This document shows positions 9,096-58,995 of a stretch of 64,000 nucleotides of DNA, piece by piece. Numbering within the stretch: the stretch's first letter is position 1; the number at the start of each line of letters is the position of its first letter. The stretch spans positions 1,178,001-1,242,000 of the forward strand of contig JAQGEQ010000186.1 in NCBI GenBank assembly GCA_034620365.1. Reading direction: 5' to 3'. The notes under the pieces were generated by a model. That model was given only the letters and a program-made list of their open reading frames with translations, had not been told where the DNA came from and did not search any database. The position numbers and the translations under genes were made by a program. Origin of the DNA: Pegea sp. RAD2-039 (Eukaryota; Chordata; Thaliacea; Salpida; Salpidae).

Positions 9096-9614
9096 AGTAC
9101 TGAAAAAATAACTTTCTAATGTAATATATTTATTAGTCTTATTACATTACAAATATTTATGACTGATAATTCAATGCATTACATTTTAAATTTTAGATTA
9201 TATTACTACTATGGCTTTTAAATAGTAAAATTACAATGCTATGCAACTTGAAAAATCCTTATTTATTTATCATCATAAGTCAGATGGAAAACATTTTAAT
9301 GTAAATAATTTTTGCTATTGATTCTAATGCCAACGATAAAAATTACTTAATTAAACTGCAGTACTAAATAATAGCTAAATATGAAAAAATTAAAGTGCTG
9401 AATCAGTATCTAAGAGTTTAACTATTTTTTGTTTAGATTTTACATTTAAATTTAGGTGGTTTCCCAAATCTGAAACTACTTGCTATATTATTTCAGTTTT
9501 TTGATAATTTAAATAGGTTCATAAATGGACATTAATATATCACTTAAGTAAATCTTACAAGAAGAAAATTATTTGTGATTAATCAATATTTTATTTATGT
9601 GATTATATATATGG

Positions 9615-10285
9615 TTTTTCGTCAACGTTTTCAAACTGTACATACGCCCTATTCTTGAATACAATGTCAGTGCATGGATGCCATATCAAGTTGGTGATAT
9701 CAGAAAAATCGAATCTGTTCAGGCAACATTTACGAGATTGGTTTGCAGGAAACTTAATATCAAATACGAGAGTTATAAGCATCGTCTCAGCTTCTTCAAT
9801 CTAGATACTTTGGAAATCCGAAGAATTAAATACGACCTTATTCTGATTTTTAAAATTATTCACAACCTAATTGATCTTCAGTGTGATGACTTTTTCTCCA
9901 TTAGTCCCTCCCTCAAGTTATATCAACTTAGAAGACATAAATTACATCTTAATAAGCCCACTCCACCAGCTACGTTAACCAGATTAAGTTTTTTCTCATA
10001 CCGCACAATCAGTACATGGAACAATCTGCCATCAGAGATTGTCATGTCAAAATCACTTATGCTGTTCAAGAAAAAGCTGAATTGTTATAATATCGCCAAC
10101 ATTGCCATTTCTAAACTGTGAATTTTTCTCTTTTACAATACTATGATTCTGTGCAATTCTTCATTGTCATGTGCTTTTTCGTTTACACGTCAAATAGATC
10201 TAATTTGTGAGAATGTGTGTTAGCGAGAGGTGCTCTCTTTAGGCACCCTCCTTCACATTTATTGTAATAAATAAATAAATAAAAA
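9615..10285 (+). mobile_element. 5'-truncated CR1/L2-like LINE, 3' end of RT ORF plus 3' UTR
   Basis: The frame is open from about 9621 to the stop at 10121. It encodes the C-terminal thumb and tail of a non-LTR reverse transcriptase: LYIRPILEYNVSAWMPYQ, then IESVQATFTRLVCRKLN, then WNNLPSEIV. These blocks are typical of CR1/L2/Jockey-related RTs. The 3' UTR ends with GTGAGAATGTGTGTTAGCGA, a GGTGC...GCACC stem, TTCACATTTATTG and a short TAAATAAATAAA tail. It is the least decayed LINE copy in the window and has no internal stop in the retained ORF. Truncation at the 5' end is typical of target-primed reverse transcription. Confidence 0.88.
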
Positions 10286-21850: not shown

Positions 21851-21854
21851 TTTT

Positions 21855-22190
21855 TATTTTTATTACAATAAATGCGAAGGAGGGTACCTGAAGAGAGCAC
21901 CTCTCGCAAACACACATTCTCACAAATAACATCTATTTAGTCAAAAATATAGAAAGCAAAAGATGTAACACATGGTATTTCGATATCACTCAAAGCATAT
22001 AACAGTGAACAATTACATGGAATGTTAATAATATAAAAAAGAGAAAAAATCCGCAGTTTAGAAATGACAATGTTGGCAACATTATAACGATTCAACTTCT
22101 GTTTGAACAATGCGAGTGACTTCGACATGGCAATGTTTGATGGCAGCTGGTTCCATGTACTAATTGTGCGGTATGAGATTATACATAGTA
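21855..22190 (-). mobile_element. 5'-truncated LINE 3' end
   Basis: Reverse-complement copy of the LINE 3' end at 9615-10285. It begins within the SYRTIS/WNQLPS region of the RT ORF and runs through NRYNVANIVISKL to a stop. The 3' UTR with GTGAGAATGTGTG, GAGGTGCTCTC and TTCGCATTTATTG follows. A second scrap of the same tail, AATAAATGCGAAGGAG, sits at about 22552-22567. Confidence 0.85.
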
Positions 22191-26874: not shown

Positions 26875-27545
26875 ATTTCTTGAATACAATGTCAGTGCAT
26901 AGATGTCATATCAAGTTGGTAATATCAAAAAATCGAATCTGTTCAGGCAACATTTACAAAATTGGTATGCAGGAAACTTAATATTAAATATGATAGTTAT
27001 AAATATCGTCTTAGCCTCTTAAATTTAGATACTTTGGAAATTAGACTGATTAAATACGACTTAATTCTTATTTTTCAAATCATCAACAATTCAATTAACT
27101 TTATATTCGATGCTTTCTTTTACATTAGTCTTCCCTCAAGTTATATCAAATCAGACGACACACATTACATCTTAATAAGCCCATATCACCTGGTACGATA
27201 ATTAGAGCAAATTTTTTCCCATACTGCACAATTAGTAATTGGAACCAGCTGCCATCAAATATTGTCAGGTCAGAATCACTCGTGTTGGTTAAGCAGAAGT
27301 TGAACCGTTATGATATTGTCAGCATTATCATTTCTAAACTGTGATTTTTTCTCTTTTTATATTATAACATTCTATTCAATTGTTCACCGTTATACGCTTT
27401 GAAGACTACTGAAATGCCACTTGTTACATCTTTTTCTTTCTATATTTCTAATTTAATAGGTATTATTTGTGAGAATGTGTGTTAGCGGGAATTGCTCTCT
27501 TCAGGCACCTTTCTTCGCATTTATTGTGATGAATAGATAATTTGT
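26875..27545 (+). mobile_element. 5'-truncated LINE 3' end, decayed
   Basis: It aligns over its length with the copy at 9615-10285. It starts at the CTTGAATACAATGTCAGTG block and passes LVCRKLNIKYDSYKYRLS and RLIKYDLILIF to a broken RT tail. The GTGAGAATGTGTGTTAGCG 3' end and CGCATTTATTGTGATGAAT tail follow. A stop replaces the conserved Trp of the SAWMPYQ block, and frameshifts are present. Confidence 0.85.
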
Positions 27546-34520: not shown

Positions 34521-34524
34521 CATA

Positions 34525-34745
34525 TTTATTACAATAAATGCGAAGGAGGGTGCCTAAAGAAAGCACCTCTCACTAACACACATTCTCACAAAAACATCTA
34601 TTAGATTAAAAACATACAAAGCAAAAGATGTAACAGATGGGATTTCAGTAGTGCTCAAAGCATATAACAGTGAACAATTACATAGAATGTTAATAATATA
34701 AAAAAGGAAAATTCACAGTTTAGACATGACAATGTTGGCAATATA
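34525..34745 (-). mobile_element. Short LINE 3' end
   Basis: Minus-strand copy covering only the last codons of the RT ORF (the ACATTGTCATGTCTAAACTG region) and the 3' UTR. It ends with GTGAGAATGTGTGTTAGTGA, the GGTGC...GCACC stem, CGCATTTATTG and TAATAAA-like sequence. The 3' UTR agrees closely with the copy at 21855-22190. Confidence 0.85.
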
Positions 34746-34749
34746 TATA

Positions 34750-46500: not shown

Positions 46501-49500
46501 CAGTTACTTCTAATCTTCCAACATCCATAAGATCAACTTCTCCGACCTTCTCTGTCAGTTAACTTTGATTAATGATCAGTTTTAACTTGTACTTTTCTGC
46601 AGGTTACACCAAAAATAAATAAACGGAATCTTGACAAGATGCAACAGTCAATTGCAAGGTAGCTGATTGGTTGATTAAATATTTACTAATTAAAGTTAAA
46701 TAATTGAGTTTATTGGATTAATGAGGTGATTGCTTCCACAGTTCACCTAAAATTGGAGCAAATCGAAAAACAAAGAACAAATGTCAGCTCTTGGAAAGTG
46801 AAAACCAACAAAAGTCAGAGAGATTAAAATGTGATGAAAACTCCACAAACAAATCTCATGACAACATGCCACCTACAAAAAGGTTTTCATCTTTCTAATC
46901 ATTCCATTTCTACACTTTTTATTTTACACCTTATGCTTGAATTGTTGTAAATTAGCAAATTTTCAAATTTAATTCAATCTTTTCATAAATAATTCATCTA
47001 ACAATATTATAAAGCTCAAATGATCAAATATATATCATAAAATCGACAAAATCTTCTTCAATTGATGAATATTTGTTATTTAGTTGTACTGAAGAAGCTA
47101 CTTCAAGACATATCGAGCAGTAAGTCGTTAATTTTTTTTACAAATTTGTTTTTTCGTCTGTAATCTCATAAAGTTTTATTTGCTTCAATTTCTATTGCTT
47201 CAAAATTGTGTTATTTTGAAAAGAAGAAGTTCTCGATATAAAAATTGAATTATTTCACAAATATCACTTTTCTAAGTCCTTCTTCTTCAAATGTTTTTTT
47301 ATCAAATCAATCTTTGTTCCTCTTCATCTTTTCCAAATCTGAAAGATCAAATATAACTTCCTGATTCTTGATTGAAATCTTTCAGTTTATCTTTACAACT
47401 GATCAGTTTTTAATAAACTTTAATAATTACATCTTTTTGAACATACAAGATTAATTCAATTTGGAAACATCAAGAAAAACTTCCTTTCTTTTACATTTTC
47501 AATATAATTTGAATTTGACAAAAAGCCATCAAAAAAGTGAATTAGGAGAAAGTCTCTTGGTTCTGTATAAACTGGTTTTTGTTAAAACATACAAAACAAA
47601 AAAAATAATTGTAATGTTTACTTTCACAATCCATTAGTAAATTATCAACTAGCCCAAATGAACGACACTTGGCAATTTGATTATTAGTTTCAAACAAGTA
47701 AGTGGACAAAATGCTTCGAACTTTTGTCTCTGTTTTTCTTGAGATGATTTTTCAATTTTTATTTTTTTATCAGTTGTTTATGCGAGAAAGAATATTAAAT
47801 TGTGATGTGACAGCTTTTTTTATTTTATTGTCAGCTTGATTCATGTTTACATTTTATTGATGTCTTTGAAAAAGAACAAATTTGAGAAACTTTTCGAATT
47901 TTTTTCTTCTAATTACTTTCATCTGATTTTCATGAAATTCTTATTTATTATTTTCATTTGACGACCAGACAACAAAAATCGATAAATTTATTTCAGTTGT
48001 GATATGTCGCAAGATTTAGATGAACAAATGTTAAATTATCACGATAATCAGCAAGAATCAACCCTGCCTTCACCCCAAGATCTTCAATTAACCAATTACA
48101 GTGGAAACACGAAGCGAGCACCTCTAGCAGACGATGAAATACCTTTTATTGATGAAACTTGTGTTGAAGCATCTAATAGACAAGTAACTTAAACTGATTA
48201 ATTATTAATTACAAACTGTCTTAATAACTTTCCTAATTTTTTTCTATTTATTTGTTTAAATTTCTCTCTTTTGTAACTTCATTTCTTTTTGTCTTTCTTC
48301 TCTGTCACCTCTGATATAATCTCTCTTTTTTTACTATTTGATATTCACCGACAACTCGTTATTTATAGAAATGTACTGATGACCCAGAGGACACACAACC
48401 CTGTCCATCAGGGCCCCAACTACATACAAAGGTCAGTTCACATCAGATTTCAACAAAATTCTTTTTTCAAAAATTCTTTTTCAACTTTTTATTGAAATTT
48501 TATTTTTTTCAGACTGAACCAAAACCTGAAGTTAAGCTGCTAGCCGTAAAAATACCAATGTCCAGAGGTTGGTGCCCCTAGCCCTAGCACTGCCCCTCAA
48601 CTAATCAAGCTTATTTACAGGAAGCAGCATTAAACGAAGTGCATCAGCTGAAAGTGTCTTATCCACAAACGATCGTCCCTTAACTACTGACCCAGTGCGA
48701 AGACGGACCACTCGGTCGTGTAGTGCTGGTTAGTGGTCCACAACACGTGACCAACTGTCCCAATCTCATTGTCCACTTCTCACAGATCGGAACAAATCGG
48801 TTTTGAGGCATTCATATATGATGGCCACTGGTATTACCACTTCACCTTTGCCGGACACCACCCCCATTAATCGGACGCGGTCCAGGTTAGTTGGACCACT
48901 CACAGCTGTGTCATGACGTCATCGCTTCATTTTTAAAATTCTGGCAAATTAAAATCGATTGATTGATCAGCTGTTGATGACGTCATCACTATGACTCGCG
49001 AGAAACTGCCGATAATTAGTAGCGACATCGATGACAGTTGGATATCGAGCGGCTCTTTATTCCAACATTTTAATTTCTCTCAAAATCCATAAACGAGCTG
49101 ACATCATCATCATCAGCAGCTCGTGTTATTTGCTCGCCACATCGCCACCTACCGGCAGTTTTTATCTTTGATTTGTTTGTTTTCAGATCTTCTGGACGTC
49201 GTTTTAGTCTGAAAAAGAAAAAAGAGTCGAGCTCGTCGGAGGTTGTGAGTCATTCCTCTAATCTTCATCTAATCATCTTTAAAATCTTAGATCGCCAACG
49301 TCCGCAAACCCATAGGATCTTCATCGACAGAATCTTCAAAAGCATCCGGGGTTAAAAAAGAGGGTCTCCTCAGCTTCAAGGTCAGTCTTCATCTTTTTCA
49401 CGATGACGTCATCACGAAGTATGACGTCACAGGTGGCCACTATCGACCGTGGCAAGCGGACAAGCGCCCAGAAGTGTTGGAAGCAAGTCTGGGTTATTAT

Positions 49501-52500
49501 TCACAATCATTTGATCTTCTTATGCAAAGAAGTTAAACAGGTAAGATCAAGGGTCCATCTTGATCCGGTTTCTGATCCTTTATCATCTTCAGGATGCTTC
49601 TACTTCAAATGGATCTCCTTGTGAAGAAAGAAGTAGCAAGACGCGAAGATCTGGGGTTCATGGGTCAAATCCTGCTGAAGACGAACGCCCCTTGAATCTG
49701 ATTGGCTCTTTAGTTTCGATCGCGTATAATTACGTCAAACGTCGAAACGTTTTTCGATTGACGACCGGAAACGGATCTGAGTATCTCTTCCAGGTGCTTC
49801 ACGCCCAAAACCGCTTCTGAAATCCACATTAACCGCGCGATTATGACGTAGGCGGATGACAACAACGACATGTTGTCGTGGATCAACGCCATCCAATCTG
49901 AATCTGCTCACGACGGTCAAGTGACCATCAACAAAGCCCTGATACTTCGTAAAAGCAGCCAGTTTGATTCCGGGTTAGTTTTGACGTCATCACTATTCGT
50001 TAGCGGGCGCTAGACAGCGGCGTGATCACGTGACACGCTGACGTCATTACTTCCGGCTTAGTGTAGTTCTAGAAGTATGAACAAATCGAAATTATTTACA
50101 GTTTGTTCAGTTTTCGATATTTTTGTTATTTTTTTTTATGAGATGTGTTTTTAGTGAATTTGTAAATCGTGTTTTCGATGCCACGTCGAATCGTTACTTA
50201 TCATCCGTCCAAATTCACTTCATTAGCAGCTTACAATTCAATGTACTGCACTAATGATGACGCAACTACTGCGCGAACTGTGACGTCATCAGTTTGTCGG
50301 TCACTTTCTGATTCATCACCGCGAAGTTATAGCAATCAAATATCAGACCAGCAGACCGCCCACCAGCCACCTGTCCCTGTCCTAACCCTGTCCTCACCTG
50401 ATCTCAACCAACTGAACGACGAAAAGCAGTTTGTAGATCCTCTTTCTTCGGTAGTGACCAGAAGAAACAAAAATCGATCAAAGCTTCAACCTTCGGAGCA
50501 ATCCCGGAGACAAGGGATCGTTTTCTCGACCGGAAGTTCATCTTCTGTACCTCAGGTTAATCTTGAAGTGAAGAGTAGCAGATATAGAATGGCTGAAAAG
50601 ATTCAAAAAACAATTCGAGCTTTATATGATAGTAAATCGAGTAGTAGACAGTTAGAGGTCAATGTGGACCATACTTACCGCCCTCATCAGTCAACTAGTA
50701 GTCAGGGCAGTATTCATCCGAGTTCTTTAAGACGTCAGGCACTTTTTAATGGTCTAAGGTAGGTTTTGTTGGTTATCTACTGATTTTTGTCGAGTACTTG
50801 ACACTCTTATATGTCGATTGGCTTTTTACTGTCTCTGTTAATTGCCATCTTCATCTACAGTCATTTATCTCCTCCTATGTCACCTCCAGATACTACAGAC
50901 TCATATTCTTATCAAAGGTATACCTCTGCTGCTGACAATTACCTTTTCAAATGTAATTTTCTCCAGCAATCAATAGATTCCGTCATTTTCAGCTTAAAAC
51001 TATTTAATTTGAAACTTCTGTAATCATATGATTTGAGTAATTTGTTGTTGTTGTGTTTATTCTTGGAATGATAACAGATTATATTTGATCTTATCAAATT
51101 TGCATCGATAACTTGATAAAATATTTCCATTTTATCATCAATTTACTGATTGTTGAGTGATTATAGATTTTGAATATTACGAAATATTCTTGCAATATTC
51201 CTTCGTCATCATATTCTGTTTGAAAAGAAATTATTGAATAGTAATTGCTCGATTTAATTCAGTTGCTATTTGTAGTTATGCAACTCTTCATGACACTTTC
51301 AACGTATTTCCTTCCGTTATTATTTCTTTTCATTTCTGAAAATTTTCAACATAAATATAAGTCGCAAAAGTAATTTGAGCAACAATAGAAAGTAGCAATT
51401 TTTTTCATCTTTTTCTTCTATCTTATCAAATTATAAAATCATTTCTTATCTTTTAGCCCGAAACCAGAGAAAAGAACTGCTCCAAAGAAGCGCTCTCCTA
51501 AACTTCCCAGACACTCAATAGCTACAACTAAAGATGGTGAGTTATCTGATATGATCTTCATTTCTGTCAGATCACATTTAGAAGCCGTTTATGTTTGAAT
51601 GAATCATTGCATCCTATTCAAGACATCAGTATCATTCACAGGCAATCTAACCTCTAGAATGAGTCGGAAAAAATCTCTTTTACTTCGCGGTCATTCATTG
51701 AAATTTACTTCCAAATATCGAACAGTTCCAAGTATTAAAGGTTCTGTTGGTTACTAAGCAACTATTTGACCAAAAAAGTTGTCGTTGTCAGTTCCACACT
51801 TGCTGGAAGCTGCATGATTGTTTATGAGTGTGTCATCTACCTCATCTTTACATCAGTTGCATGATCTGTTCTTGGACTTCCACTCCTTCCATCTCATCTT
51901 ATCTATTTTTCAGTTGATGGATCGAAACGTTTCAAATGGCGTGGAAGTGTAAACAAAATTGCTAAAAAGTTTGTACAAGGCAACGCTCGTGTAGGGGGTA
52001 CTTTCGGTGCACATTTAGAGGACTGTCCGACCACACGTGAAAATCATGTAAGTACATCTCATGAAGTTGACTTCAAATCATCCTCTAAAACCTCCGCAGT
52101 TGATCCCATTCGTCGTTGAGCTCTGTTGTCGACTCGTCGAAGCCAAGTGGATCAGATATACTGGCATCTATCGTGTACCTGGCAACAATGGCACCTTAAA
52201 CTCTCTACAAGATGAACTGAACCAAAAAGGTCCTGATGAAATTGATGTGGAAACAGATGAACGATTTCATGATGTCAATGTTGTTTCTTCTTTATTGAAA
52301 CTTTACTTTCGGATCTTACCGGACCCTCTATTCACTAACGGTAACTTCATCTTAGGTGGATATTCGATTTGATTTCATGAAATTCATCTATTTAGAGTTG
52401 TATACTGATTTCATCATCACAAACCGCAAACCCAATTCAGAAGAACGACTAAACGGTCTACGAAGACTGGTCCACATGCTACCTGGTCCTCATTATGAAA

Positions 52501-55500
52501 CCCTAAAGTTTCTAATCACACATCTGAAGAAGGTTGCGGACCACTCAAGTGACAACCGAGTAAGTGTCAGGAAAGTCGACCCACCGACCAATCAGGTAAT
52601 TGATTTATATATCAGATGGATGTTCGGAATCTTGCCATTGTATTTGGACCAACATTGGTTAGAAGTACAGCTTCAGATAATGTCGAGTCGATGGTGACAG
52701 ATATGAGCGACCAATGTCGAATTGTTGAAAGTATCTTGCAAAATGTGAGTTAATTTCAAGCGTGTTGCTTTACTACTAATTGCTTGCTCTAATCTTCTTC
52801 CTCTAACAATATTAATTAAACAATTAAAACTTTGAAGTCTCCAGTTCTTGGCTGAATCCTATGTTGTTGTCTAACTTGAAATCACTGTGTAACAGGACGG
52901 TTATTTTTTCTCTGGCGAACATGAAGAGATACCTACCTTTGTGCGGAGTTTTCTCGCCTAACCTTTTCAACTTTAACAACAATCTTAACTCTGGAACTAA
53001 TTTCTTTTTCATTTTTTTGTTCTTGCATTTGTCTGTCTTCTTTCAACATAAACTTTTTATGATTTTTTTATGTTAATATACACAACATTTCAAGTTAGGT
53101 TTGCTCATCACTTAATTTGCATATATTGGTTATTTTTTACTTTTTATTTTTGTTGGGGTTGTACCCGTGTCTAGGTCATTATGATTTCTGTTCATGGTAA
53201 TATATGTGCATGTTATAAATGTGCAATACAAACAACAAACTGAATAGTAACTTGGTTTTTGGGGTACAACTGAACAGATAATAAAGAACAGCTCACTAAT
53301 AAGTTTTTAAAGTTTATTTAAAACTTTTCTCTTTGAAAATAGACAGTAGAGAAAGATGAAAAACTTTTTCTAATAAATTAGAACATTGCAACAATCTATC
53401 AGCACCAGTTTCAACCTCTACTAATTATTGATTGAATTTTTACTTCTATCATAACAGCTACATTTAATGAAACCAATCACATTTCTTATCTAGACTTCTT
53501 TTTGTTTACAATTAAAAACTTTTTACTGAATTTTGTTGTTGTTAATTTCTTCATTTGTTGTCATGATAGAAATTTTTGTTGACAGAAACAAAATTTCCAG
53601 AAACTTTTAAACTTTTTTTATTTCTCAGGCCGACTGGTACTTTGCTAAAGATGAAGAATCAGTAGAAGCTCCATTTCCAACACCAGTAGACACCACCCAA
53701 GAACAAATTGTACCAAGCATCGACCATCTTCTGGTCAATGTTGGTCGGACAGCTGATAATTCAGGTTTTAATTTGATCTTTTAGTATTTTACAATAATTG
53801 CTACAATTGAAGATGCACATTAAATCATTTCAATCTTTTTCGTTTATCTTCTTTCATAGTCTTCATCTGATCAGCAAATCATTTACAAATATTTTTATTT
53901 GATCATTTAATTTTATCACATCTTCATCTTCTGATTTTATTCACTTATCATGCTGCCCCCTCTAGTGGCTGGTAAGCGCGTTTATCTGTCTTCTATATGA
54001 CGTAATCCTACTCATCATCAGGTTTTGTCGGTCATTTTGTTGTTAAATGTTGTTTGTTGCATGAAAATATCTTCGCTGTAATCTCATCGCTTCAGTAACT
54101 TCATTTTTCATAATTTCTTTTTCCTTTTTGTTTCAGATAATACAAGTGAATCCTCAAAATCCAAGGTGAATACATAAACTTAACACACATGCGCCATCTG
54201 GTGGCTTAATTAACATTCTTCTTCACTTAATCTTCATCATCTCACCATTTTCTTTCTTTACAGCACTCTGGGGTGTCTGAGAAGGAATCTTTTTCACGAG
54301 ATGTCATCAGTTCACTGTTTGGGAAGAAATGGAAGCTAACTGGATGGAATAGACGAGAGGGGAAAGAAACTGAAGCTCAAAGTAGTGATGATGAATTTGG
54401 TTTTAAGGAGATGGAGAAGAACAGATCAAAACATGTTCCTGAGAAAACGAAATCAGAAGATAATGTTGCTTTGATCAGTTCAGGTGTTGAAGAAGATACA
54501 AATGCTCCAAAAAGTGCTCGAGAACTTCGACGATTTGTAAGTCAATCAGAAGAAGAACCCCGAAAAGTCCCTACTCCTTCAATTGCTCCTTCTGATCATT
54601 CATCTCATGTTTACAACTTCTCTCATGAACAACTTTCCACCTCATCATCAGAGGTGACGTCATCACCGCGCGTCACACCCGCAGATCAGTTACTTCAACG
54701 AGGCGATTTGCTTCGTGCTTCAATGTCAGCCGCGACGCGACGCAAACACCAGCCTCCTAAAATTCCCAACATCCCGATTACTTATCACTATAGCAACGTG
54801 TACAAGTACGGAGACGCGCCGCAAAATCGTCGTTTCACGCGCGATCCACACTACGAGCGCAACCTCCTTCCATTTGTCATTGTACCCAACTCTTCGACCC
54901 CAATCTCCACTCCCATCACCATCCATCCGCTCCCTAGTCCTCCTCAAGATAACATCCCAGATGTAGCTCGCACTGATCCCAACATCCGCTTCAATGGAGA
55001 CACTTTCGAAGAAAAATTAAAGAATCTCACCAATCTCGATAATGACGTCACATATCATCACCCAATTGCTGATGACGTCGAAATCGCGATTCCTTTCGTC
55101 ACGGTCCATCGACAACAAGCTCCTAGGCAACGCCTCAAACTCAGTGGGCCATCGATGAAAGCGGGTGCGGTATTACGTCATCAAGATGACGTCATTGGAC
55201 GCAAGACTTCTATCGATTTGTTTCATGAACGAAAGATAAGAAGACAGATGCAGCGAGACCGGAAGAAGATGTCGCGCGCGTCACGATTTGCCGGGAGTCA
55301 TCTGATCACAAGATGTGCATCTGAAGAGAATGTTTTTCAATCTGCATCTGAAACTGCTCCTAATCCTTCATCTCATCCGTCTTCTCGCATCCGTCGACGT
55401 CATACTCTCGGTTCAGGCGACTCGCTTCCCGATAAATCCCAACAAAAACCTCATCAGGCCCCAAAACAGCTCATTAGCAATCCTCCCCACTTTTACCCCT

Positions 55501-55655
55501 GCCCCAAACCCCAATCTGGTGCTACTGCCATGGAAAGACTCTGTCCTCGTGGACAAGTGTCCATCAGACCAATCCATCAGCCCCGTGTTGATCAATTTAC
55601 GAGACATTTAAACTCTGTTCGAAAATCATCGCGAAGAACTGAATCTTATCTGTAG
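40584..55655 (+). CDS. ARHGAP21/23-like: ARHGAP21/23-like Rho GTPase-activating protein (PH + RhoGAP), about 31 exons
   Basis: Stimulates GTP hydrolysis by Rho-family GTPases; relatives act at Golgi membranes and cell junctions. Proposed exons: 40549-40586 (ATG is its last codon), 42189-42679, 42884-42983, 43628-43789, 44487-44903, 45354-45408, 45626-45896, 46391-46553, 46603-46658, 46742-46882, 47084-47119, 47997-48183, 48369-48431, 48513-48567, 48621-48728, 48786-48885, 49187-49244, 49291-49380, 49433-49540, 49593-49793, 49852-49973, 50155-50758, 50861-50917, 51457-51536, 51642-51740, 51914-52047, 52100-52340, 52396-52559, 52616-52744, 53629-53764, 54137-54165, 54264-55655. Total is about 2,016 aa. 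A linker block DEIPFIDE matches ARHGAP21. The PH domain runs from [10 protein letters not shown] to [18 protein letters not shown] and [10 protein letters not shown]. The RhoGAP domain has [12 protein letters not shown], arginine finger [28 protein letters not shown] and [13 protein letters not shown]. Downstream blocks [10 protein letters not shown] and [12 protein letters not shown] are ARHGAP21-like. No PDZ is seen, and the 50155 exon has a frame conflict. AATAAA lies at 55854-55859. Confidence 0.93.
49143..49155 (-). promoter_or_regulatory. CTCF-like motif 1
   Basis: The minus strand reads CCGGTAGGTGGCG, one mismatch from the CTCF core CCASYAGRKGGCR. It lies in an intron of the ARHGAP-like gene, just before the exons encoding the PH domain. 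Confidence 0.4.
53955..53968 (-). promoter_or_regulatory. CTCF-like motif 2
   Basis: The minus strand reads CCACTAGAGGGGGC, one mismatch from the CTCF core. It lies in the intron between 53764 and 54137. It overlaps the possible 6-base microexon at 53966-53971. Confidence 0.45.
54191..54204 (-). promoter_or_regulatory. CTCF-like motif 3
   Basis: The minus strand reads CCACCAGATGGCGC, a full match to the CTCF core CCASYAGRKGGCR. It lies about 235 bases from motif 2 in the same orientation, in the intron between 54165 and 54264. Confidence 0.5.
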
Positions 55656-55859
55656 AAGATCATCTGAAGATTTTTTGTGATCTTTTTGTTGATCTCTAAG
55701 AGTATTTTGCATCTGATCTGCTCTATTTGCTAAGATCTGTTGAAAAGACATCAGTTTGTATTGACCAATCACTCTCTAGCAATTTGAGAGGTTTTATATT
55801 TTTCTCGTTTATTTTTTTTCTTTAGGTTTTTTGATGGTTTCTTTTCTACTTCTAATAAA

Positions 55860-56640
55860 TTAATTTTGAAAATTACTTTTTGATTTCAACAATTAAATAA
55901 CCAGTTTGCGCTTCAAAACTAGAAGTTAAGTTTGTAGAAATTCAATTCAACGGTTTTATGCTTTCAAATAAATTGATAAATAAAATAATTAATTTCGTTA
56001 AAATTAACTTTTAACCAACTTCTAATTTAAAATGAGTGTAGTTTGATTCTATTTTACTTAAATATTTTCATAAATTTTCAATTTAAATTATTTTTTAGTG
56101 AAAAGTAATTGAATAAATACAAATCTGGTTTTATGTAGAAAATTTGAATTTAATTTTCTTAGCAGTATACAACATCTAAACTAAAAAATTTTTAGTTGTT
56201 AAACTTACAAAAGTATCAATTTAGAACATCTTGAACAACGAACAATTCCTAAGTATTCATATTAACTGTAGGACATATTGAACAGTTTAAATAAGATGAA
56301 CATATTAACTGCATTTCATTAAACAATTATAAGACTAACTGCTAAATAGATTAATTAAAAAATTGTTTCTTGAAGTGTAGAAAGAATCGGGCAGTTTCGA
56401 GCTTGAGAGAAGTTAATGTAAACTTCGACACGCCCCTTATAATCGTACAATGCCTTAACACTTTCGCTCACTAAGTACACGCTTGGTCTGTAACACAAAA
56501 ACTTTTGAAGTCAAGGCTTAGTGATACTGTTCAAGAAATTTAAATGTCTTAGTTCTAAATTAATCTATTAACTTTTCTTGAACTTATTGACACAGGGTTT
56601 GAATCAGTTTTGGTAGTGTTACTAATTAAAGTCTTAGAGC
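55860..56640. other. Spacer after the ARHGAP-like gene
   Basis: AT-rich, beginning after the AATAAA at 55854-55859. No gene was seen. Confidence 0.5.
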
Positions 56641-56844: not shown

Positions 56845-57535
56845 TTCAATCTTTTCCAATTGTACGTATGTCCAATTCTTGAATACAATGTTAGTGTATG
56901 GATGCCATATCAAGTTGGTGATATCAAAAAATCGAATCTCTTCAGACCACATTTATGAAATTAGTATGCAGGAAACTTAATATTAAATATGATATCATCT
57001 CAGCTTCTTCAATTTAGATGCTTTGGAAATTCGACGGATTAAATACGACTTAATTCGTATTTTTAAAATTCTCCACAATTTAATTGACCTTCAGTTTGAT
57101 GATTTCTTTTCCATTAGTCCTTCCCTCAAGTTATATCAACTCAGACGACACACATTACATCTTAATAAGCCCATATCACCTGGTACGTTAATCAGAGCAA
57201 ATTTTTTTCTCATACCGTACAATTAGAACTTGGAACCAGCTGCCATCAGACATTGCCATGTAGAAGTCACTCGCGTTGTTCAAGCAGAATTTGAACCATT
57301 ATAATATTGCCAACATTGTCATTTCTAAACTGTGATTTTTTCCTTTTGATATTATTAACATTCTACATAATTGTTCGCTGCTATATGTTTTAAGGACTAT
57401 CGAAATGTCATGTGTGGCATCTTAGGCTTTCTAACTTAATAGATAGTATTTGTGAGAATGTGTGTCAGCGAGAGGTGCTCTCTTCAGCTACCCTCTTTCG
57501 CATTTATTGTAATAAATAAATAATAAAGAGATTCC
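56845..57535 (+). mobile_element. 5'-truncated LINE 3' end
   Basis: The RT tail begins around FNLFQLYVCPILEYNVSVW and continues MPYQVGDIK. After frameshifts, IRRIKYDLIRIFKILHNLID follows, then a broken WNQLPS region. The 3' UTR has GTGAGAATGTGTGTCAGCGA and GAGGTGCTCTC, then CGCATTTATTGTAATAAATAAAT. The roughly 200 bases upstream (56640-56845) are not clearly part of the LINE and are open on both strands, but match nothing I recognise. Confidence 0.85.
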
Positions 57536-57814: not shown

Positions 57815-58995
57815 ACACTTTAGCTTCTCAGATGACACAATTTGAACATCACATGAATGACTATGATATCTTCTTTGCTGATATCTGAAACATGACCATT
57901 TTGTGTTTATTTCTTGGGTACATATTTAGTGTGTATCACTATAAATCCTTTTTTAGACCTCCTAACTCAAACACAACCTTTTCATGAGTTTTAAGTCCCT
58001 TCCCAGTACCACTTCTACACCGAGGCCCTCCATGACAAACAGATTTATATTTTTCTACTGTTTCTTTAACAGACGAATTTGACTTTGCACAATTTATTTA
58101 TTTTGCAAATCTTAGATGACTGAGCCATCTCTACTTTAAACTTATTTTGAGCTTTCTAAATCTTGAAATTCCGAGCAATCTTTCCACTTACAAAGCTCTT
58201 CCAGGATTTGGTATCAATAAGAGCTTAAGTAGCTTACTCACACAATAGCTTAGTCATTGCGACTCTCTCCCTGACTGTTTCTAAGGAGACCTTTTCTGAA
58301 GATGACATGCTTGACTATAGTGTCCCTTCTTCCCGCATTTGCTCGACATTTTTCAAAATCATGAGGTTTGCTTCCTCCACATTTTAAACAAAATTCTTTC
58401 ATGGCCGCTACTGTCGGTTCCGTTTGGTCCTCCGACTTGAGCTCCATTTAATTTGCTTCTTCTGCAGCTTCAACCGACCTACCAGCCCTGAAGTATCGGT
58501 TGTTCTGCCAGGTATCCTCCTGTATCACTGTTGGTTAAAGGCTTCTTCTAATGTTACAGTTTGACGCTTTAAAAATCTTTGCCTTATATTTGATGAGGAT
58601 AATCCATCTATAACTGAATCCCTGACCATATCGTCCCTGTGTTTTGTTGCCGTGACACTTTTAAAATTACAGTTCTTGGCTAGACGTATCAAAGTGCGCA
58701 GAAAGTCTTCTGTAGATTGACTTGGTTTCTGCTTCTCTGTGCGCAACAGATGCCATGCAAACATTTCATTGGGGTTCTTTACATACAACCGTTCCATCAT
58801 AGCTTCAGCTTCTAAATAAGTCTGACAGCTCTCAAAGTATACGTCTTCGGTTGTGCAGTTAACCAGCGCTGCTAATTTTATCTCATTAGTCCAATTTGAC
58901 TCATACTGTTTTAGGTAATTAGAAAAGTTTCATTCCACTGACATCATTTGCTGGATGCCGGCGGGCTATTTGAGCCTTTAGACAGCTTAATTGGT
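57815..58995 (-). mobile_element. Ty3/Gypsy-like gag and protease relic (minus strand)
   Basis: Minus strand, right to left. The putative gag start near 58990 reads MDQILEPIKLSKG and is soon frameshifted. A capsid-like segment (58900-58525) carries NEMFAWHLLRTEKQKPSQS, LIRLAKNCNFKSVTA and VIDGLSSSNIRQRFL, closely patterned on Gypsy-type gag. A zinc-knuckle region near 58380-58290 follows, with C-x2-C-x5-H-x4-C and a second CGKKGHYSQAC-type knuckle in a shifted frame. A protease relic lies near 58230-57950 with ALIDTKSWKSFV, where DTK replaces the catalytic DTG. It also has the VVFELGG C-terminal block. Stops and frameshifts throughout make it a pseudo-element. RT and integrase are absent. Confidence 0.85.

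Follow-up and report, generated by a model that had tools for sequence, protein, structure and literature searches.

The stretch of DNA analyzed here, referred to as the window, comprises 64,000 nucleotides of the salp Pegea sp. RAD2-039 (assembly GCA_034620365.1, contig JAQGEQ010000186.1, positions 1,178,001 to 1,242,000 of the forward strand), and the element in question is the palindromic octamer TGACGTCA, a word of the cyclic AMP response element (CRE) type. Ten copies were found in the window, all within 48,914-55,194, and 100 shuffles gave a mean of 0.31 and a maximum of 2. The initial annotation had reported ten copies where fewer than one would be expected per 64 kb, and this was borne out. 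When the GC-rich part (47.0-61.0 kb) was considered alone, the ten copies compared with 0.21, 0.74 and 2.26 expected from Markov models of orders 1, 3 and 4 respectively; the excess persisted in the third-order check that had been suggested, with the caution that the models of orders 3 and 4 were partly trained on the sites themselves. The strand and order of the RhoGAP exons and the motif-bearing frames suggested that they belong to one gene (Table 1). The frames flanking the intron at 49381-49432 resemble, as we take it, the PH domain of ARHGAP21/23, and the open frame in this putative PH region (49291-49533) had no Pfam match. As far as can be read from the sequence, the sites occurred in introns, in exons and in more than one frame, as had been claimed: those at 49404 and 49422 are intronic, and four lie in open frames (50166-50759 and 54231-55652), where the motif starts in two phases. 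The palindromic context GATGACGTCATC, described at first as recurrent, is real but surrounds just two of the ten sites.

Genome-wide abundance and clumping of the octamer

The window's own assembly (105,744,746 bases in 387 contigs) contained 27,792 copies of TGACGTCA versus 969 of the reversed control word ACTGCAGT. The longer word GATGACGTCATC occurred 3,824 times versus 4 for its control, and TGACGTCATCAC occurred 2,054 and 2,124 times on the two strands (4,178 in sum) versus 1 and 1. With a mean density of 0.263 per kb, or one TGACGTCA per 3.8 kb, an average 64-kb stretch would contain 16.8 copies, and the window with its ten lies below that. A regulatory array specific to the window gene was therefore rejected. 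The confinement of the copies to one gene segment, also part of the initial annotation, holds inside the window but not genome-wide, since another 10-kb stretch holds 54 copies.

The copies were clumped. Eleven 10-kb stretches chosen by coordinate held 7 copies in total, and three chosen for density held 31, 19 and 54. Beside the 54-copy stretch there were 8 kb with 12 copies on one side and 6 kb with none on the other, and a further 8-kb stretch chosen for density held 14. Contig C1 was divided into 10-kb bins over its first 1.57 Mb; the mean was 0.64 and the variance 2.3, with 107 of the 157 bins empty and one bin holding 13. Among the matches listed (the first 100 each, all on C1), copies of TGACGTCA and of TGACGTCATCAC were irregularly spaced, and pair distances up to 130 gave no clear period; fixed spacing or helical phasing of the copies was set aside. 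The excess over Markov expectation in three motif-holding sets was 6 to 183 fold for orders 1 and 3, and was lower (1.8 to 6.6 fold) for the model of order 4, itself trained on the motif.

Clumping was accompanied by a shift in base composition, measured in 226 one-kb bins from which the motif letters had been removed. Motif count correlated with GC content and with the observed/expected ratio of CpG (Spearman 0.46 and 0.43). The 184 motif-free bins had a GC content of 0.279 and a CpG ratio of 0.62, as against 0.374 and 1.09 in the 14 bins with at least 4 motifs; the size of this effect is indicative, since 46 of the bins came from five loci that had been selected within or next to motif-dense regions. 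At locus L010, the motif bins at 5-8 kb had GC of 0.31-0.37 and CpG ratios of 0.87-1.33, with 0.26 and 0.18 in the neighboring bin on one side and 0.28 and 1.04 on the other (4-5 kb). GC-rich bins were nevertheless unequal. Among the eight window bins whose GC is at least about 0.39, three hold no motif, and the GC-matched comparison is weak in that 8 of the 10 unselected bins with GC of at least 0.38 came from the window, 2 being outside both the window and the five loci. With this reservation, a genome-wide property tied to GC-richer tracts was the best supported of the three explanations offered at the outset.

Sequence of the site and of its variants

Flanks were examined at 159 copies, tandem copies included, which gave 318 flank sides. 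The base following the TGACGTCA core was T in 65%, C in 26%, G in 7% and A in 2%, so read as a pyrimidine after the core or a purine before it in 91%; the second flank base was C in 47% and the third A in 61%, with little preference beyond. The extended consensus is RTGACGTCAY and its best form is TGATGACGTCATCA. Because the preference fades beyond about three bases, tandem arrays excepted, the copies share a site and not a longer repeat.

The core was largely intact. The number of 12-mer copies with one mismatch was 8,156, of which flank-only changes predict 5,419 (from the 159 copies), indicating that core variants are rarer but not absent. In 58.9 kb of patch sequence, from which two arrays at L012 had been removed, 121 intact words were counted versus 55 for all 24 single-base variants together, among them 17 copies of TGACGTAA and 15 of TGACATCA. 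With the flanks held fixed, the outer core C was changed in 373 copies genome-wide (control 11) and the C of the CpG in 772 (control 34), versus 3,824 intact. The first 100 outer-C copies listed comprised 70 A, 18 T and 12 G (A versus T, p = 2e-8), with several A copies from tandem loci and three T copies from a satellite; the 100 listed for the CpG position, counted by eye, comprised 67 T, 26 A and 7 G. Mutational decay should favor T at the outer core C, which gives the transition product TGACGTTA, whereas A gives TGACGTAA, a variant compatible with basic leucine zipper (bZIP) proteins. As A outnumbers T, protein recognition fits the outer-C variants better than decay does, and the spectrum may be a sign that the variants retained are those a protein accepts. 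An origin of the variants by mutational decay alone was discarded; it misfits at the outer core C and fits at the CpG. The simple mutation or repair bias raised by the initial annotation likewise fits less well, the outer-core spectrum being unlike that of decay.

The octamer in open frames, introns and motif-dense genes

Ten chosen open frames contained 15.5 (the BTB frame), 13.1, 7.7, 7.1, 6.8, 5.5, 2.8, 2.1, 1.7 and 1.4 copies of TGACGTCA per kb. In an open frame the motif can occupy two phases because the third gives a stop, and the peptides encoded by the word are DV(I/T) and (M/V)TS. Since open frames may run through introns, only copies inside domain-matched stretches were counted for domains. 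Such copies numbered 5 of 9 in the BTB frame, all five within a match of 71 residues; the methyltransferase frame had 2 of its 6 copies so placed, and the tropomodulin frame 2 of its 5. By our reading, one of the two tropomodulin copies sits in a putative intron, this frame having a short GT-AG intron that begins GTAATGACGTCAC, and the 8 remaining copies across the three frames are coding. The word has thus made its way into some conserved coding sequence, the BTB domain being the clearest case, and stays out of other such sequence. When compared with solved structures, the BTB frame matched at residues 144-185 only, a second BTB-like stretch (E value 0.0025). The FH2 (formin) domain was dropped as a conserved domain carrying the word, both copies of its frame being outside the match.

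The motif-dense genes look ordinary. They include a gene with RCC1 and BTB domains at L010, presumably IBTK-like, a tankyrase-like gene with ankyrin, SAM and PARP domains (L011), a tropomodulin/leiomodin-like gene (L012), a gene for a METTL21-family-like lysine methyltransferase (L022) and, at L023, a gene with a Pfam match to the FH2 domain. Two coatomer-zeta-like frames in L022, one matching the clathrin-adaptor small-chain family and one named by eye, contained no TGACGTCA.

Tandem repeats and a second palindrome

A 33-bp satellite near the end of C1 (L047 41-1101, C1:6114740-6115800) carried the motif in 27 of 32 units; it lies about 16 kb from an 18S match. Among the tandem-repeat rows of L010 and L012, 6 of 23 carried the motif (7 of 24 when the satellite at L047 was added), in unrelated units of 19, 20, 20, 23, 36 and 46 bp. 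Because the motif recurs in tandem units that are otherwise unrelated, extra copies are seemingly favored. No motif-bearing tandem array was found in the site-bearing stretch of the window. At L012 5627-6928, a 434-residue open frame on a tandem array with a period of 57 bp is motif-free amid the densest patch.

A second palindrome, TCACGTGA, was also in excess over a first-order Markov model by about tenfold, with 6 copies versus 0.61 expected in the eleven arbitrary stretches and 7 versus 0.71 in the dense ones. It sometimes adjoins TGACGTCA.

Features of the window and background of the genome

The positions of the sites and associated features are given in Table 1. Elsewhere in the window, the stretches 57044-57523, 27055-27540, 21852-22176 and 34523-34749 are 86-90% identical to parts of L018 1561-2051 and represent a dispersed repeat. 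The open frames 9603-10118 and 58528-58929, neither with a Pfam match, look like the final portion of a LINE-type reverse transcriptase and like a gag-type protein.

Table 1. Sites of TGACGTCA and associated features in the window, and positions of TCACGTGA in the loci named.
Feature	Position	Strand	Remark
TGACGTCA site	48914..48921		context GTCATGACGTCATCGC
TGACGTCA site	48978..48985		context TTGATGACGTCATCAC
TGACGTCA site, within 52-nt GT-AG intron	49404..49411		intron by our reading
TGACGTCA site, adjoining 3' splice site of the 49381-49432 intron (TGACGTCACAG/G, slash marking the splice site)	49422..49429		intron by our reading
TGACGTCA site, directly 3' of a probable 5' splice site (GTTAGTTTTGACGTCA)	49982..49989		splice site by our reading
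TGACGTCA site, probably intronic	50039..50046		our reading
TGACGTCA site, open frame 50166-50759, peptide ..TVTSS..	50281..50288		frame analysis
TGACGTCA site, open frame 54231-55652	54655..54662		frame analysis
TGACGTCA site, open frame 54231-55652	55043..55050		frame analysis
TGACGTCA site, open frame 54231-55652	55187..55194		frame analysis
52-nt GT-AG intron with two motif copies	49381..49432	+	splice sites by our reading
RhoGAP domain exons, two overlapping open frames	52052..52694	+	PF00620, E values 1.1e-17 and 1.7e-12
474-residue open frame with three motif copies, without Pfam match	54231..55652	+	profile search
Stretch of (mostly) raised GC and CpG containing all ten sites	48001..56000		1-kb bins, GC 0.29-0.44
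TCACGTGA palindrome	L001 1460, 2481; L003 1694; L004 1516; L018 3976, 4384, 9252; L023 2069, 3074, 4797		

In the genome at large, 99 of the 100 telomeric places listed had TTAGGG repeats, which speaks against a nematode or arthropod source; a search for SL1 gave no match, its search controls matching nowhere either. One exon matched GH6 (PF01341) with an E value of 1.2e-4 and 27.5 bits at a cut-off of 27, with no match in 14 control genomes; the frames around it presumably resemble the tunicate enzyme, and to our knowledge this enzyme is restricted to tunicates among animals. The few complete genes readable in the sampled loci look intron-poor, and the few introns that were read are of the GT-AG type. 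In Fritillaria borealis, by contrast, only 5% of introns are canonical (PMC13326754), and that species was set aside. Judged on sequence alone, the telomeres and the GH6 exon pointed most probably to a larvacean tunicate. There were four 18S matches. Two divergent copies of ribosomal DNA (L030 and L031) were 88.9% identical over 2,144 bases including spacers; the copy at L030 is without part of the 18S stretch present in L031 and is preceded upstream by long AT-rich repetitive sequence. The only duplicate pair compared, L045 and L046 (C21:1488155 and C37:190728), consists of 294-bp regions with an ATF6-type exon (by eye), representing a duplicate or an unmerged haplotype; it was identical over the 294 bases and hence offered no single-site variation.

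Relation to known systems

Among known systems, the nearest relatives are HIP1, the M26/Atf1 hotspots and the TCTAGA element of Oikopleura. A literature search, with most subscription journals beyond its scope, found no report of TGACGTCA abundance of this kind and no paper on Oikopleura together with TGACG. The CRE, bound by CREB/ATF and also by AP-1 dimers that accept 8-bp sites, has the identical core. RTGACGTCAY and TGATGACGTCATCA are preferred by CREB/ATF/AP-1 bZIP dimers, and the published in-vitro consensuses share the purine and pyrimidine flanks and the extended form seen here. Known CREs occur as ones to a few copies in promoters and enhancers. Many of the copies described here were seen in open frames and introns, and they belong to a population of 27,792 in 106 Mb whose density rises to 15 per kb within an open frame; these copies are putative binding sites. 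The M26/CRE site of fission yeast reportedly pairs the word ATGACGT with Atf1 at a meiotic hotspot. The likeness consists of the ATGACGT heptamer, present in about 65% of copy sides, of a proposed bZIP reader and of patches with raised GC; we know of no comparable over-representation of M26-type sites.

In cyanobacteria, HIP1 (GCGATCGC) is described as an 8-bp palindrome repeated through the genome far above chance (PMC4390886). The octamer of Pegea is likewise a palindrome far above chance genome-wide and partly in coding DNA, and differs in being another word in an animal genome, clumped rather than evenly spread through coding DNA. In the larvacean Oikopleura dioica, TCTAGA is a male promoter element and a short palindrome used genome-wide (PMC6389100). 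It is a different word, found in promoters at a fixed distance to the start site.

Interpretation of the motif patches

We propose that the TGACGTCA patches are a genome-wide population of putative bZIP sites, of CREB/ATF or AP-1 type, that are kept at the DNA level, and we put the chance that this is correct at about even. RTGACGTCAY, at best as TGATGACGTCATCA, would be read by one or more bZIP dimers, and selection on binding would keep the copies. The patches, of about 1-6 kb, would lie within genes, both in introns and where coding exons tolerate the word, and when bound would serve as intragenic elements of regulation or open chromatin. We read the ten sites of the window as a modest example of such a patch in a RhoGAP-domain gene. 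The observations in support are the copy number, the preference for an intact core, flanks that are free beyond three bases, the clumping, the positions in introns and in a few coding domains, and the presence of bZIP regions. The genome contained 12 matches to PF00170 (bZIP). Basic regions recognized by eye were of CREB type in L036 (over two frames) and of JUN and FOS type in L035 and L038, with further regions of CREB3, ATF6, XBP1 and C/EBP type. The CREB/ATF idea of the initial annotation agrees with both the extended consensus and the spectrum of variants, as a genome-wide class of sites and not as the control array of one gene.

Several observations weigh against this proposal. A density as high as 15 sites per kb within an open frame greatly exceeds what a gene should require of one factor. 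The changes at the CpG were more frequent than those at the outer core C and, among the 100 listed, mostly transitions, which decay would also predict, so that decay and recognition both allow them. Part of the genome count is satellite and tandem sequence, dispersed copies dominating in what was readable. Entry into strongly conserved coding sequence was seen in few domains, because none of the four copies in the SAM (0 of 1), PARP (0 of 1) and FH2 (0 of 2) frames lay inside the match, and the ankyrin and RCC1 frames carry none. Moreover, the excess of TCACGTGA suggests that something broader than one factor may act.

An iterated palindrome resembling HIP1, in which drive, repair, replication or conversion favors the intact 8-mer wherever it is tolerated and most copies have no local regulatory role, would account for open frames being as dense as the surrounding patch (13-15 per kb in two frames at L010 versus 12 per kb in their bins), for the five copies inside the BTB match, for flanks unrelated past three bases, and for the scarcity of each single-base core variant measured, about 7- to 85-fold below the intact word (proportions among the 100 listed applied to the totals). 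We consider this explanation unlikely, given that the extended consensus resembles bZIP specificity and that the strong clumping would be unexpected of a uniform drive; in bacteria, moreover, HIP1 is tied to methyltransferases (PMC4390886). Plain by-products of repeats or composition, whereby satellites, intron-like mobile elements or GC content itself make the word common, would agree with the 33-bp satellite, with the other short tandem arrays that carry the word and with the tracking of GC by motif count. Against such an origin, which appears very unlikely, the copies share little past three flanking bases, those first listed on C1 are irregularly spaced (another listing does reach the satellite), and the excess remains when it is set against order-1 and order-3 Markov models and, to a lesser degree, against the motif-trained model of order 4.

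Two further explanations assign the word a different task. If CRE-like sites bound by bZIP proteins marked meiotic hotspots, GC-biased conversion would lift GC and CpG, in line with the kb-sized GC-raised patches, such as that at L010 with its step to the neighboring bin, and with the frequency of the M26 word. This step was unclean on the other side of the L010 patch, however, and conversion from the uncut homologue should remove a break-attracting motif, not add copies of it, which makes the recombination account quite improbable. The lowest probability was given to a signal at the RNA level, acting in the pre-mRNA, for example in the splicing of short introns. Several copies touch or adjoin the splice sites that were read (window 49422 and the tropomodulin-like introns in L012), and the TCA extension was biased in the sense orientation over six loci (right 38 versus left 16, p = 0.004). 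Nonetheless, four loci lean right (15-2, 5-2, 12-5 and 4-0) and two left (2-4 and 0-3), the copies at any one locus do not count as independent, and tandem copies occur in L010 and L012. The introns read are short, which places every intronic copy close to a splice site, and the core is palindromic and present inside coding domains as well.

Returning to bZIP sites held at the DNA level, a more far-reaching form of this proposal, which we would sooner doubt than accept, is an iterated regulatory palindrome comparable to HIP1. Here a bZIP consensus would have been pushed by DNA-level selection or drive into tolerant positions of gene bodies, exons included, and, instead of controlling the individual genes, would flag patches for a task at the scale of the chromosome, be it germline chromatin licensing, meiotic recombination or replication, reshaping proteins through DDVI and MTSS peptides. 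If true, an animal genome would possess an iterated regulatory palindrome of the HIP1 kind. If the word fills parts of gene bodies at 7-15 per kb and enters a conserved domain, a demand at the DNA level would set amino acids. The system would then provide, in the compact genome of a chordate, a natural test of how factor sites, coding constraint, recombination and base composition are traded off.

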